A DNA stretch of 64,000 nucleotides from an uncultured Roseateles sp. (GTDB taxonomy: Bacteria > Pseudomonadota > Gammaproteobacteria > Burkholderiales > Burkholderiaceae_C), in contig NZ_CAMFJS010000019.1 of assembly GCF_945956965.1 (NCBI RefSeq), positions 1 through 64,000 on the forward strand. Direction: 5' to 3'. Made by a program: the position numbers and the translations under genes. Of the stretch, positions 242 to 4,666 are shown one piece after another. How positions within the stretch are numbered: the first letter of the stretch is position 1; each line of letters opens with the position of its first letter. Below the pieces are notes generated by a model. It was not told where the DNA came from, did no database searches, and was given only the letters and a program-made list of their open reading frames with translations.

Positions 242-1174
242 TCAGGGCTTGGCGTTGGCCGCGGCTTTGGCTTGCGGGGCGAACTCACGCAGGCAGCGCG
301 CCATGATCTGGGCCGCCTCGCCCATGCGGGGGCCAGGTCTTGCCATCACATCGCTTTGCTCGGCATCGAAGACGCAGACGCGTTTGTTGGCGATGGCGCC
401 AATTCGGTCCCAGCCGGGGCGCTGATACAGGCCATCCAGATTGCGCCGGCCGATCATGATGAGCTGCGGGTTGGCTCGCACCACATACTCGGGGCTGATC
501 TTGGGGAAGGGGCCCATCTCCGGCGTGATGATGTTGCGCCCGCCCAGGCGGGCCAGGGTCTCGCCCATGAAGGAGCTGGGGCCGGCGGCATAGGGCGAGC
601 GGTCCACCTCGTAGTACACCAAGGTGCCGCGTGCCTGCGGCGGAATGCTTTGGGCGGCGGCGCCAACGCTGGCGTCAATGCGGCGCCAGATCGCTTGCGC
701 ATCCGCCACTTGCAGCAATTGGCCCAGCTTGGCGAGCACGCGCTGCACATCGGCGTAGGACTTGGTTTCCAGCGTCACCACGGTCAGGCCCAGGCCGCGC
801 AGGCGATCGCTGACGCGCGAGGAAGGGGCCACGAGCACCAGATCGGGCCGCAGCGCCACGATGGTCTCGACTTGGGTATCGTCCAAGCCGCCCAGCTTGG
901 GCAGCTTGTTCACTTGGGCGGGGTAGTTCGAGTAGCGGTCCACGCCCACCAGGCGATCGCAGGCGCCCAGCTCGCAAACCGTTTCGGTCAGCGAGGGCAG
1001 CAGGGTGACGATGCGCTGTGGCGCTTTGCTCCACTGCGTGGTCTGGCCCTGGTCGTCTTTGATGGCGACGGTGGGCTGGGCGTGCGCGCCTGTACTCAGC
1101 AGGCTGAATACGAGTAAAGGCAGGGCGATTGAAAACAGGCGGCGCAAATTCATGGCTTTGATTCCTTGGCTCAT
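242..1174 (-). CDS. btuF: Cobalamin-binding periplasmic protein (BtuF-like)
   Basis: This 310-residue type III periplasmic binding protein delivers cobalamin to the BtuCD importer. A signal peptide ends near residue 32 (LLVFSLLSTGAHA). The family core follows: PQRIVTLLPSLTETVCELGA, DRLVGVDRYSNYP, then ALRPDLVLVAPSS and a C-terminal lobe ending in MGEAAQIMARCL. The ATG at 1174 overlaps the cobU stop in an ATGA arrangement; a second in-frame ATG at 1153 (MNLRRLFSI) would give a more typical signal peptide and could be the true start. It sits between cobU and the btuC permease in a riboswitch-controlled operon, which supports B12 uptake over haem or iron uptake. Confidence 0.88.
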   Translation of the reverse strand: MSQGIKAMNLRRLFSIALPLLVFSLLSTGAHAQPTVAIKDDQGQTTQWSKAPQRIVTLLPSLTETVCELGACDRLVGVDRYSNYPAQVNKLPKLGGLDDTQVETIVALRPDLVLVAPSSRVSDRLRGLGLTVVTLETKSYADVQRVLAKLGQLLQVADAQAIWRRIDASVGAAAQSIPPQARGTLVYYEVDRSPYAAGPSSFMGETLARLGGRNIITPEMGPFPKISPEYVVRANPQLIMIGRRNLDGLYQRPGWDRIGAIANKRVCVFDAEQSDVMARPGPRMGEAAQIMARCLREFAPQAKAAANAKP

Positions 1175-1752
1175 TGGCCGCGCTGGGCCGCCACCGGCCG
1201 GGTCCAGGGCTGGCCCGCCACCATCAGGGTCAGCTGCGCGCAGCGCGCGGCCACGTCCTGATTGAGGCGCCCCAACTCATCGACATAAAAACGTGCCTCA
1301 CTCGACATCGGCGAGACACCCCAGCCGACCTCGTTGGAGACAAAAATAATGCGGCCTGGCAGCTGGGGCAGGGCCTCCAGCAAGGCCTGCCGTTCCTGCT
1401 GCCAGCCGAGCAAGTCCGCCTGGCCCTGCATGGGCATCAACCAGTTGGTCAGCCACAGGGTCAGGCAGTCCACCAGAATGAGCCGCTCGGGCGCGGCGTT
1501 AGCTTGCAAAGCCGCGGTCAAGGCCAGGGGCTCCTCCCGCGTGCTAAAGCCGGCCGGGCGGTCTTGCTGGTGACGCTGGATGCGGGCTTGCATCTCCGCA
1601 TCAAAAGCCAGCGCCGTGGCCAGTACGATGACGCGGTGCTCGGGTGCAGCGGCCAGCCAGTCTTGCGCCAGCGCTTCCGCATGGCGCGACTTGCCGCTGC
1701 GTTGGCCGCCGACGATCAGCTGATGTTGGTCGCTGCTAGTGTGGTGTTTCAT
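1171..1752 (-). CDS. cobU: Bifunctional adenosylcobinamide kinase / adenosylcobinamide-phosphate guanylyltransferase
   Basis: CobU/CobP (193 residues) phosphorylates adenosylcobinamide and transfers GMP to it when the cobalamin nucleotide loop is assembled or salvaged. The Walker A motif GGQRSGKS is at residues 15-22 and the expected guanylylated histidine is His61 in ARIQRHQQDRP. Further family blocks are LILVDCLTLWLTNWL and FVSNEVGWGVSP. The start is unusual: the only plausible in-frame start (ATG at 1752) lies inside the terminal inverted repeat of a miniature element, so the first five or six residues (MKHHTS) are encoded by that element. The other end overlaps btuF by 4 bases. It lies in the B12 operon downstream of btuB. 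Confidence 0.93.
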   Translation of the reverse strand: MKHHTSSDQHQLIVGGQRSGKSRHAEALAQDWLAAAPEHRVIVLATALAFDAEMQARIQRHQQDRPAGFSTREEPLALTAALQANAAPERLILVDCLTLWLTNWLMPMQGQADLLGWQQERQALLEALPQLPGRIIFVSNEVGWGVSPMSSEARFYVDELGRLNQDVAARCAQLTLMVAGQPWTRPVAAQRGQ

Positions 1753-1901
1753 GCTGTGTGGCGCTTAAGAAAACCGATGGATTCGCTCTTGTGGCAAGGC
1801 GCAAACCGCAGCCATAGCTGTAGCTATGGCGAGGATTTGCAACGCCGCCACGGGAGTGAAGGCGCGGTTTTATGACCCACTCAGTGTGAAACACCACACT
1901 A
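1737..1901. mobile_element. MITE-like hairpin element with TA ends, between btuB and cobU
   Basis: A 161-bp segment (1739-1899) has perfect 13-bp ends (GTGTGGTGTTTCA at 1739 and its reverse complement ending at 1899). The match extends to 17 bp when the flanking CTAG and one outer base on each side (1735, 1903) are included. TA dinucleotides flank it (1737-1738, 1900-1901), as after a TA target duplication. The whole element is an imperfect palindrome centred at 1819-1822: the left half and the reverse complement of the right half align almost throughout, with a perfect 8-bp core (GCCATAGC/GCTATGGC). No transposase is present. CTAG-type TA insertion is typical of IS630/Tc1-mariner elements, so an IS630-derived MITE is the best guess. 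It begins 8 bases after the btuB stop and covers the cobU start codon. Confidence 0.75.
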
Positions 1902-1909
1902 GCCATGGC

Positions 1910-3853
1910 TTAGAGCGCCGGGCTGTAACGCAGGCCCAGGAACACGGTGCGCGGCGCTTGGGCATAGTCCAGCGCGGTCTGGTAGTCCTTGTTGAAGGCA
2001 TTGTCCAGATTGAGCTGCACTTTCAACTCACGCGTCAGCGCGTAGGCGGCGTTGAGGTTGAGCAAGGCATAGCCGCCCAGCGCGCGCTTGTTTGCGGCGT
2101 CGTCAAAGCGTTGGCCGGAGGCAAATACGGCCGCGCCGAAGTCGAAACCAGCCAGCTGGGTTTGCGCCGAGATCGTGCCGAACTTGCTGGCACGGCGGGC
2201 CAGCATATTGCCGGTGGCCAAGTCCTTGGGTGCTTGCAGGTCCAGGCTGGCGCGCCATTGGATGCCGGCCAGCTGGGTGCTGGCGGCCAGGCTCAGACCT
2301 TGGAGCTGGGCGCGGGTGACGTTTTGATAGCAACCAAAGCTGCTATTGCAAGTGCCCGCACCACCGAAGACGATCAGGTTATTGATGTGGTTGCGGTAGA
2401 CGGTGGCGCTGAGGTCGCTGTCACCTTCGGCGAACTTGATGCCCACTTCCACATTTCGGCCCTTCTCGGGCTCCAGCGCCTTGGCACCGGGGATGCTCAG
2501 CTTGGGGCCGTAGTCGCTGAAGCTTTGGTAGAGGGTCGGCGCGCGGAAGGCGTTGCCGACCGAGCCGACCAAGCGCCAGGCCGGGCTGAGCTTGACGCCC
2601 AGGGCCAGGGTGCCGGTGTTGACGCCGCCGAACTCGCTGTCTTCGTCGTGGCGCGCATTGACTTGGGCGTCGAAGGCCGCGCCGGTCCACAAATAGCCTA
2701 GGGCCAGGCCGGTCTGCGAGCGATCGGCGCTGCCAACGGTGGCAGCTTGGGTAAGGCCGCTGTTATCCAGTTGATCTTGCTTGTGCTCGGCCAGAAAGTT
2801 GATTTGCTGGTGCGCGTCGAGCTGATAGCTGCCGTCCAGGGTGGCGGTGCGCACTCGCGTGTCGGTCTTGTAGGGCGAGGGGCGGGTTTCGTAGCCCGCC
2901 TTGGCCTGGGCCAGGCTGAGGCGGGTTTGCAAGGCCTGGCTCCATTGCGAGAGCCAGCTCAGGCGGGCCGCGCTGGTGTCTTGCAGGCTATGGTCATCCG
3001 ACGTGGACTTGAAGGCGTCGTACTGGCCGTCGGTATGGCTTTGCAAGGCCATCAGTTCCAGGCGCTGCTCGGCGTTGAGCTGCGCGCCCAGGCGCAGGCT
3101 GGCGTTGTGCTTGCTCCAGCCGTCGATGTCGGGGTTGAAGTTGCTGTTCTTGGGGTTGGCGATGGTGTTGAAACCGTCGCTGCGCTCGCCGCCCACATTG
3201 AGGGCGTAGTCGAACACGCCGGCCGTGCCGCTCACCGAGGCGCCCAGGCGGGCCGTACCCAGATTGCCAAAGCCGCCGTTCAACTCCACGGCCAGCTTCT
3301 TCGCGCCCTTGCGGGTGAAGATCTGCACCACACCGCCGATGGCGTCGGAGCCGTAGAGCGCGCTGGCCGGGCCCTTCAACACTTCAATGCGCTCGACTTG
3401 CGAGAGCGGGATGGCTTCCCAGGGCGCGCCGCCGGTGCTTTGGCTGTCCATGCGCACACCGTCGATCAGCACCAGGGTGTGGCGCGAATCCGCGCCGCGC
3501 AGAAACACGGAAGTGGCCGAGGCCGGGTTGCCGTTGCGGGTGAACTCGACGCAGCCCGCATTGCGCAACAGGTCGGCCAGGTCGCCGAAACCTTGGCGGT
3601 CGATGTCGGCGCGGGTGATGACGGTAAGGTCGGCGCTGACGTCGCCCAAGCGCAGCGGTGTGCGCGAGGCGGTCACGACCACGGAGTCAAGTTTGTTGGG
3701 GCCAGGGCCTGTGGGGCCAGCTTGTTGAGCCAGGGCCTGGCCGGACAGGCCAGAGATTGCCGCAGCAGTGGCCAGAGACAGGGGCGCGAAACGGCGCAGG
3801 CAGGCAGGGGCGAACGCCAAGCGGGCCGAGGGCCGGAAAGAAGTGGTTTGCAT
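1910..3853 (-). CDS. btuB: TonB-dependent vitamin B12 outer-membrane receptor
   Basis: A 647-residue TonB-dependent receptor that imports cobalamin across the outer membrane. After a signal peptide (ending around GLSGQALAQQ) comes a Ton-box-like stretch DSVVVTASRTP. The plug domain follows (DLADLLRNAGCVEF, FLRGADSRHTLVLIDGVRM, VERIEVLKGPASALYGSDAIGG), and then a long beta-barrel ending RTVFLGLRYSPAL. I chose the ATG at 3853; longer in-frame starts (GTG 3952, ATG 3949) would place about 33 extra residues before the signal peptide. No strong Shine-Dalgarno sequence precedes 3853. A cobalamin riboswitch lies about 110 bases upstream, which identifies the substrate and predicts repression by adenosylcobalamin. 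Confidence 0.93.
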   Translation of the reverse strand: MQTTSFRPSARLAFAPACLRRFAPLSLATAAAISGLSGQALAQQAGPTGPGPNKLDSVVVTASRTPLRLGDVSADLTVITRADIDRQGFGDLADLLRNAGCVEFTRNGNPASATSVFLRGADSRHTLVLIDGVRMDSQSTGGAPWEAIPLSQVERIEVLKGPASALYGSDAIGGVVQIFTRKGAKKLAVELNGGFGNLGTARLGASVSGTAGVFDYALNVGGERSDGFNTIANPKNSNFNPDIDGWSKHNASLRLGAQLNAEQRLELMALQSHTDGQYDAFKSTSDDHSLQDTSAARLSWLSQWSQALQTRLSLAQAKAGYETRPSPYKTDTRVRTATLDGSYQLDAHQQINFLAEHKQDQLDNSGLTQAATVGSADRSQTGLALGYLWTGAAFDAQVNARHDEDSEFGGVNTGTLALGVKLSPAWRLVGSVGNAFRAPTLYQSFSDYGPKLSIPGAKALEPEKGRNVEVGIKFAEGDSDLSATVYRNHINNLIVFGGAGTCNSSFGCYQNVTRAQLQGLSLAASTQLAGIQWRASLDLQAPKDLATGNMLARRASKFGTISAQTQLAGFDFGAAVFASGQRFDDAANKRALGGYALLNLNAAYALTRELKVQLNLDNAFNKDYQTALDYAQAPRTVFLGLRYSPAL

Positions 3854-3959
3854 GAAAAAAAGGGAACACGGCAAGGGCCAGACGCGCAACTCACCCGCTA
3901 CGCGTACTGAAATCGATGCATCGATGCAGACATGGCTGCGGCGATCCATCACCTTGTTG

Positions 3960-4160
3960 GCCGGTATCCGGGCTGGTGAACATACCGCTGAGTCCTTCCC
4001 AGCGCTTCTTCTTTGCAGAATCGGCGCCAGTGGATTGAGTCCAGGGCTTGAGGCATCTCTTGAAGCACGCCTCGTTCACTTACCGTTGCGGGGACAGCTC
4101 AGGTTGGTCTTGCCGCGTGGCGGCTTAACTTCCTGATTCCCGTTTAACTGCACCGCCATG
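3960..4160 (-). promoter_or_regulatory. Cobalamin (B12) riboswitch upstream of btuB
   Basis: On the minus strand the leader carries the conserved cobalamin aptamer landmarks in order: an AACGGGAATC start element near 4140, the core GCTGTCCCCGCAACGGTAAG (about 4078-4097), ACTGGCGC near 4030, CTGGGAAGGACTCAGCGGT (about 3985-4003), and AGCCCGGATACCGGCC near 3960-3975, which matches the 3' AGCCCGGAGACC-type block. Such elements bind adenosylcobalamin and lower expression of uptake and synthesis genes. It precedes btuB and presumably controls the btuB-cobU-btuF-btuC transcript. There is no evident terminator before btuB, so control of translation is more likely than of termination. Ends are approximate. 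Confidence 0.9.
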
Positions 4161-4192
4161 AAGGGCGGTGCGAGCACCAACAGCCTTTGATT

Positions 4193-4666
4193 CTACTTGC
4201 TGCCGGGAGGTGTTTTCGCGGGTTTGGCGGGCTTGCTAGCTTTTGGCGCCTTGCGCTTGTCTGGATGCTTGTGCGCAATGGATTTCGGGGCGCTGGCAGC
4301 TGGCTCGGCTTGGGCAATGCCCTTGAGCCCGTCAATGCCTGCTGGCTTGGCATTGCGCTGTAGATCAATGGCTTCCTGGCGCAGCCTGGCCTGCTCCATT
4401 TGATCGGCCTGGCGGGCTTGCTGCTGCGCCTGCGCTTTGGCGGCTTGCGCCTGCGCGGCCTGGGGCTGGTCGTAGCTCAGGGGTGAAGGCGCGATGTTGG
4501 GCTTGCCGGGGCAAGGGGAATCGCGCAGTTCGCGGCCATCCGGCCCGCAGCGGTAGAGGCCTGTGGTCTTGTTTTGGGTTTGCGCCTGCGCTGCTTGCTG
4601 CAAGCACAGCGCTGACCCGAGCAGGGCCAGCAGTGGGCAGAGCAAGAAGCGGGCGATGCGGTTCAC
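4193..4666 (-). CDS. DUF4124-type periplasmic protein
   Basis: A 157-residue protein with a signal peptide ([22 protein letters not shown]) and a short DUF4124-like segment, [20 protein letters not shown], that holds the family's paired cysteines. A Gln/Ala-rich coiled-coil stretch (residues about 68-100) and a Lys/Pro/Ala-rich tail follow. The function of this family is unknown; members are usually exported. The start is a GTG at 4666 that overlaps the pth stop by 4 bases (GTGA), so it is translationally coupled to pth. The low-complexity tail weakens any homology inference beyond the N-terminal domain. Confidence 0.75.

Follow-up and report, generated by a model that had tools for sequence, protein, structure and literature searches.

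The question raised by this locus is where the translation of cobU begins when a palindromic element stands between this gene and btuB. We have analyzed the locus within a stretch of 64,000 nucleotides from an uncultured Roseateles species, referred to here as the window. The original prediction held that a 161-bp TA-flanked palindromic element between the two genes had donated the only usable start codon and the first residues of cobU, in a riboswitch-controlled operon. The element, with its perfect 13-bp ends and long hairpin, and the cobalamin riboswitch upstream of btuB were both recovered (Table 1), and the donation of the start is supported by the empty-site join and by relatives that have a start of their own. 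The prediction overlooked that the native ATG of cobU survives beyond the element, where it begins a leader ORF whose end overlaps the new start. The best explanation overall combines replacement of the start by insertion with coupling of cobU to btuB through this leader, and we consider it quite probable.

Table 1. Features of the btuB-cobU locus; positions are those of the window.
Feature	Position	Strand	Basis or remark
MITE-like palindromic element, 161 bp	1739..1899	-	class-1 ends GTGTGGTGTTTCA (direction of the btuB-cobU mRNA)
TA flank on the cobU side	1737..1738		flank reading and empty-site join; alternatively CTAG 1736-1739
TA flank on the btuB side	1900..1901		flank reading and empty-site join; alternatively CTAG 1899-1902
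Core hairpin, common to elements with other ends	1801..1840		copy comparisons
cobU, adenosylcobinamide kinase / guanylyltransferase, 193 aa	1171..1752	-	NF004469 182.4 bits (cut-off 161), PF02283; start and first residues apparently from the element
Present cobU start ATG, apparently from the element end	1750..1752	-	sequence
Stranded native cobU ATG, 3 nt past the btuB stop	1904..1906	-	empty-site join; L057 and L058 have the same stop + GCC + ATG layout
btuB, TonB-dependent B12 receptor, stop TAA 1912-1910	1910..3952	-	GTG 3952 is the mechanical maximum for the start; best NCBIfam match TIGR01779 below cut-off
Cobalamin riboswitch upstream of btuB, same strand	3942..4196	-	RF00174, 67.5 bits (gathering 31.5)
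btuF-like substrate-binding protein after cobU	242..1174	-	NCBIfam equivalog matches below cut-off
Leader ORF, 56 codons, old ATG through the element, stop TAG 1738-1736	1736..1906	-	sequence; no Pfam match

The cobU product matches the NF004469 equivalog over residues 9-182 and contains the Walker A motif GGQRSGKS. Its ATG is followed in frame by AAA CAC CAC ACT AGC AGC GAC CAA CAT CAG CTG ATC GTC and then by the Walker A glycines; as predicted, no ATG, GTG or TTG occurs among these codons, and the frame is closed by a TAA five codons upstream of the ATG, at 1767. The minus-strand junction reads btuB ... CTC TAA GCC ATG GC TA, the element, and GCAGCGACCAACATCAGCTGATCGTC. When the element and one TA are removed, the flanks join as ATG GCT AGC AGC GAC CAA CAT CAG CTG ATC GTC (MASSDQHQLIVGGQ) in the genome that holds the window (G000) and as MASSGQHQLIVGGQRSGKS in a second species of the genus (G005). 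The joined flanks encode MASSDQHQLIVGG, a normal CobU N-terminus, which becomes MKHHTSSDQHQLIVGG with the element in place; by sequence, M-A-S-SDQHQLIV is changed to M-K-H-H-T-S-SDQHQLIV. The native ATG stands 154 nt upstream of the new one. It is unable to read into cobU because the added length, with the duplicated TA, is 163 bp and no multiple of three; the ATG of the element can. From these reading frames, it is almost certain that an ATG supplied by the element has replaced the cobU start. An IS630-type MITE-like element would have inserted in codons 2-3 of cobU, cutting off the native ATG, and the gene would have survived by way of the outward ATG of the element end, which lies in frame, so that ATG AAA CAC CAC ACT AGC joins the old third codon. 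The translation of cobU now appears to run through the hairpin element; no second match to cobU was found in the genome.

The junctions of relatives, whose comparison the original prediction had called for, show the site without the element. Among 18 genomes of the genus, cobU was found in 14 (not in G012, G013, G015 and G017). The element stands at the btuB-cobU junction in two of these 14 (G000 and G005), G005 carrying the same insertion with an element 99% identical. The other 12 have their own N-terminus in place, with an ATG or GTG 8-13 codons ahead of GGQRSGKS. A wider set comprised 94 cobU loci, 11 of them duplicating others and 80 of them from named genomes (Paucibacter, Roseateles, Aquabacterium, Pelomonas and others); here the junction element occurs in L040 and L041 only, and a core-length match lies ~2.2 kb upstream of cobU in L114. 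An ATG, GTG or TTG is found 6-13 codons before the motif in 77 of the 79 loci L042-L120, and the nearest suitable ATG in the other two is at 17. A btuB end was recognised in 53 of these 79 loci, and there the gap between btuB and cobU has a median of 11 nt and a range of -1 to 168, versus 157 nt here. In both L057 and L058, MSAAQHHLIVGGQRSGKS begins 3 nt past the btuB stop, and the N-terminus in L048 reads MAASAHHLIVGGQRSGKS. On CobU matches of up to 80% identity the host is judged to be probably close to Paucibacter/Roseateles. The region around cobU aligns between G000 and G005 in four blocks (~58 kb) at 91-94% identity; barring a later exchange of this region, the insertion would therefore be older than the divergence of the two lineages, and it is most simply placed in their common ancestor. 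Three further loci (L082, L085 and L090) have btuB-cobU gaps of 115-168 nt without this element, and something else may sit there.

The length of the element, 161 bp, lies within the ~70-400 bp usual for MITEs, and its terminal inverted repeats are 13 bp long and perfect. The arms, 1735-1768 and 1870-1903, are 82% complementary, and the minus strand is predicted to form a single long hairpin of -105.7 kcal/mol (241 nt folded; z -6.1), a stability reached by none of 200 shuffles. Dispersed full-length copies are present in G000, G005 and G007. The element is bordered on both sides by TA or CTAG, and its empty site is represented by the joined flanks, which give a normal cobU start, and by the 12 genus loci that lack it. 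No transposase gene is contained in the 161 bp, and the leader ORF that crosses them matches no Pfam family. Among the other copies, some deviate by a single base at one of their ends, so that the length of the target duplication (TA or CTAG) is ambiguous. Judged by these features, the element shows the usual marks of a MITE, with ends of the IS630 type. Neither an Rfam search of 1690-1950 (E up to 1) nor a phage search with the element gave a match, and no promoter or terminator was found inside the element. Plasmid matches of core length were obtained in 4 records, and at a laxer limit 6 had the core alone.

Other copies, sought as the original prediction had suggested, exist in the same genome: three are full-length (100, 86 and 84% identity) and four are partial. 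The end 13-mer occurs six times in G000 against none for its reversed control; five of the six are element ends and one (on contig C24) is not. Of the 18 genus genomes, 13 yield one or more matches at E up to 0.001, many of these to the core only, while full-length copies are found in G000 (3), G005 (2) and G007 (2). Read outward, an end gives NTG AAA CAC CAC AC. The predicted membership of the cobU ATG in the inverted repeat thus needs qualification: the codon does come from the element end, but only its TG lies within the perfect 13-bp repeat, and the adjoining base varies to give ATG at one end and GTG at the other. Of the 14 ends of the seven full genus copies (two of which are the same cobU insertion), 13 fit this outward reading with ATG or GTG as first codon, the exception being an altered end of the C44 copy. 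Outward start codons are not universal in the wider family, where 93 end-like matches, chance ones included, comprise ATG (24), GTG (35), TTG (1), CTG (1), ATC/GTC (18) and other codons (14). The exact 16-nt end CTAGTGTGGTGTTTCA occurs at 9 places in 4 of 399 family genomes; eight of these places are accounted for by the ends of known copies, which leaves locus L212 as the ninth. The only partner of a near end in G004 (L198) has 3 mismatches.

Several copies have unusual surroundings or forms. Two class-1-like elements lie ~0.2 kb apart in L199 (G008:C29; 1999-2132 and 2325-2399), one of them interrupted by N. At two loci of G007, the pair of class-1 ends is joined nearly back to back and the entire middle is gone, which leaves palindromes of ~37 bp (L136 1479-1515 and L143 1499-1535). 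In G006 (L135 1500-1778), the start region of a small HTH protein (VKHHTPRIALG...), with its GTG, consists of an isolated end 13-mer, by chance or as a remnant. An element end with an outward start in frame lies upstream of an RNase E/G gene in G123 (L144, from 1650) and of a caspase-domain gene in G007 (L020 1649-2755), as a possible N-terminal extension in each case; these outward starts are ATG or GTG, and both genes have candidate internal starts. Among the ORFs analysed at element ends, and as judged from reading frames, cobU alone is established as a case where a start from the element would be the sole start; further long ORFs run from ends elsewhere (e.g. in L021, L136, L149, L176).

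An IS630-type transposase with the same ends, the source named in the original prediction, exists in other genera of the family but was not found in either genome that carries the cobU insertion. In locus L212 of G220, a partial IS630-type copy, a 108-aa DDE_3 C-terminus (37.4 bits, cut-off 28.6) has its stop codon inside the exact 16-nt class-1 end; against NF033545 (transpos_IS630) this piece scores 75.1 bits, under the whole-protein cut-off of 100. Its relatives occur in 64 of the 399 family genomes (E up to 1e-15) and in none of the 6 genus genomes in that set. Among 30 IS630-type loci fetched, eight (L232-L238 and L240), which belong to other genera of the family, are bounded at either side by class-1-like ends, with 2-3 mismatches in 15 and 1167-1174 bp apart; among the remainder, ends of another kind, a single end or no recognisable end was seen. 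Relatives on plasmids carry the annotation IS630-like and in some cases ISBmu8 family; in the latter, as in L232-L240, ends reading CTAGTGTAGTGTTGCATTC... flank the DDE_3 transposase and are close to those of the cobU element. These insertion sequences are ~1.17 kb long and include a transposase, whereas the cobU element has none. An IS630 parentage had looked unsupported from the genus alone, a view that was dropped after the L212 transposase ending on the exact end and the family loci. DDE_3 (PF13358) is present in 3 of the 18 genus genomes, and no class-1 ends were found around those three loci; it was not found in G000 or G005. No autonomous partner was thus recognised in either genome, and any present movement of the element there would, by inference, depend on help from elsewhere.

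The ~55 bp in the middle of the element turn up again in elements whose ends are quite unlike its own. The conserved core hairpin, GGCAAGGCGCAAACCGCAGC ... GCGAGGATTTGCAACGC, lies at 1793-1856 of the window and was compared across loci L004-L007, L012-L033 and L145-L170; an element with other ends in G007, for example, matches the core at 98% over 51 bp. At 80 places examined in the fetched loci, paired ends spanning 160-171 bp were found in 61, other lengths in 8 and none in 11, and the end types around the core include class-1 and at least five others. Two IS5-type (PF01609) insertion sequences of G004 have ends that match one end type (L226 1319-2506; 3 and 1 mismatches in 22) and another (L224 1310-2496; 3 and 1 in 17), and they are likely partners for the elements with those ends. 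At least one two-sided change that keeps the pair was seen for 14 of 22 predicted core pairs, which is a count over 28 chosen, related copies and not a test. The element or its core was found in 113 of 250 family genomes, only the top candidates per genome being scored. A strict core pattern, applied to 398 genomes of the phylum, was found in 3, which all belong to this family, and missed family genomes that were positive in the 250-genome survey. These comparisons lead us to a tentative proposal, which we put at somewhat short of probable: a group of mobile hairpins (~160-171 bp) would combine one core with the ends of different insertion sequence families (IS630-type, and IS5-type in at least two relatives) and could use several transposases. 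Those with class-1 ends, which in the genus nearly always offer an outward ATG or GTG, would act as mobile start-codon cassettes, and at cobU such a cassette may have turned a plain start into a leader-ORF attenuator.

We turn now to how cobU may be translated. The mRNA started at the riboswitch would include the entire hairpin, whose outermost stem holds the new ATG. Ribosomes ending btuB would re-initiate at the old ATG 3 nt further on, and their passage along the 56-codon leader through the element would take out the left arm and melt the hairpin. They would then stop at the TAG and restart on the new ATG at 1752. The displaced native start would thus now serve as a leader ORF, by which cobU is coupled, across the element, to btuB. 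We favour this coupling of btuB, leader and cobU as moderately probable, as inferred from the geometry: 3 nt separate the old start from the btuB stop, the leader overlaps the new ATG by 17 nt (its TAG lies 14 nt into cobU), and the predicted mean unpaired probability around the new ATG, 0.25, increases to 0.54-0.61 once the left arm is taken away. Unfolding or re-initiation has been described as a route of coupling between closely spaced or overlapping genes, and more than 80% of overlapping gene pairs share less than 30 bp (PMC12548453). No Shine-Dalgarno pairing precedes the new ATG: its energy is +0.4 kcal/mol, where the median is -2.7 for random 17-mers and -4.9 for the ATG starts of 73 relatives (counted with duplicates). 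There are points against the coupling as well. The old ATG (-1.7) has no clear Shine-Dalgarno sequence either. The start of the empty site also has a low predicted accessibility (0.34), and a long hairpin could reduce downstream expression. Finally, the leader, open in both G000 and G005, is also uninterrupted in 4 of the 7 other copies that were tested and in 632 of 5000 shuffled sequences, so that its openness is no sign of selection.

Initiation could instead occur independently at the ATG supplied by the element, from a weak ribosome site or a separate transcript, with the leader ORF playing no part; the element supplies the start by any route, and an open leader is common among its copies. 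The start lies within a strong stem, however, its Shine-Dalgarno energy is unfavourable, and no sigma-70-like promoter was found in 1600-2100, and we regard independent initiation as unlikely. A further reading keeps the replacement of the start but has the btuB-cobU mRNA cleaved or terminated within the hairpin, with cobU expressed from an unmapped downstream promoter; this is more doubtful still. MITE hairpins can alter mRNA stability or undergo cleavage (PMC3733652, PMC10969869), but the same interval, 1600-2100, holds no promoter-like site and a lone terminator-like site, inside cobU at 1623-1608, where 0.7 would be expected by chance.

The separation of the native start from its gene and the strong hairpin on the new start might also mean that the insertion inactivated cobU, leaving the ORF as a remnant and the ATG as a coincidence. 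We think this very improbable, as two species carry the same insertion with an intact ORF, the protein exceeds the equivalog cut-off, and the genome offers no other cobU match. Furthermore, between G000 and G005 dN is 0.013 and dS 0.119 (dN/dS about 0.11), with 16 of 21 differences at third positions, and cobU thus remains under purifying selection. A start at an unusual codon, such as the in-frame CTG that does exist three codons before the motif, would make the element end irrelevant but would lose the residues ahead of LIVGG that relatives keep, and is hardly credible. Replacement of the start by the element, with coupling through the leader, is thus the reading that we retain.

The element itself differs between G000 and G005 at 2 of 161 sites. 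Two or fewer differences have a binomial probability of 0.0014 at the btuB rate (126/1932) and of 0.06 at the cobU rate (21/566), and 6.6% of 2788 overlapping windows are as little diverged; in view of the latter two values, constraint on the element between the two species is not claimed. Both differences alter the leader peptide, which speaks against the coupling reading and for which reason the peptide was rejected as a selected protein.

The cobU junction provides a clear natural case in which a non-coding mobile element has almost certainly replaced the start of a conserved metabolic gene, with both starts still readable and the insertion in two species. It would be a ready test of whether ribosomes cross a full-length hairpin to a buried start, and it is a warning for the annotation of start sites next to MITEs. 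The core shared under the ends of unrelated insertion sequences would, if confirmed, show that small elements pass between transposases.

Among known systems, MITEAba12 of Acinetobacter resembles the cobU element as a short multi-copy element without a transposase; its ends carry start codons followed by 3, 7 or 8 codons, and fusions could result (PMC6382973). Start donation is described there as a possibility, whereas at cobU the native start of an enzyme appears to have been replaced and the empty site can be read. The RU / YPAL elements of enterobacteria form the N-terminal part of some annotated proteins, e.g. YP_0349 (PMC2759123), but this involves a long translated element sequence, whereas the B12 salvage gene here receives a start codon and a few residues. 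Rickettsia palindromic elements lie in frame within genes (PMC10969869); they are part of a translational fusion, whereas the cobU element restarts a frame into which the old start is unable to read. The Chunjie MITE of Geobacter uraniireducens is likewise a MITE within an operon, although start-codon donation is not mentioned in the portion of that account available to us (PMC10969869). The Beta-proteobacterial repeat element (BRE; ~90 bp, with conserved parts of 40-60 bp) occurs in Polaromonas, Delftia, Bordetella and others, often in tandem with a variable number (PMC3110155); set beside the core hairpin by description only, it may or may not be related to it. In translational coupling through an upstream ORF, of which iraD is an example, a short ORF also lies just upstream of a start and structure over the start is unfolded (review, PMC12548453), but at cobU the short ORF would stem from the native start, which an insertion had displaced. 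In searches of the open-access PMC literature we recognised no report of a MITE that replaces a conserved enzyme start and leaves the native start upstream, and absence from print is not claimed. Thus start codons at MITE ends (as a possibility), elements that form N-termini and elements in frame within genes are all known, and what the cobU junction would add to them is the replaced start of a conserved enzyme, with its native start left in place as a leader ORF.
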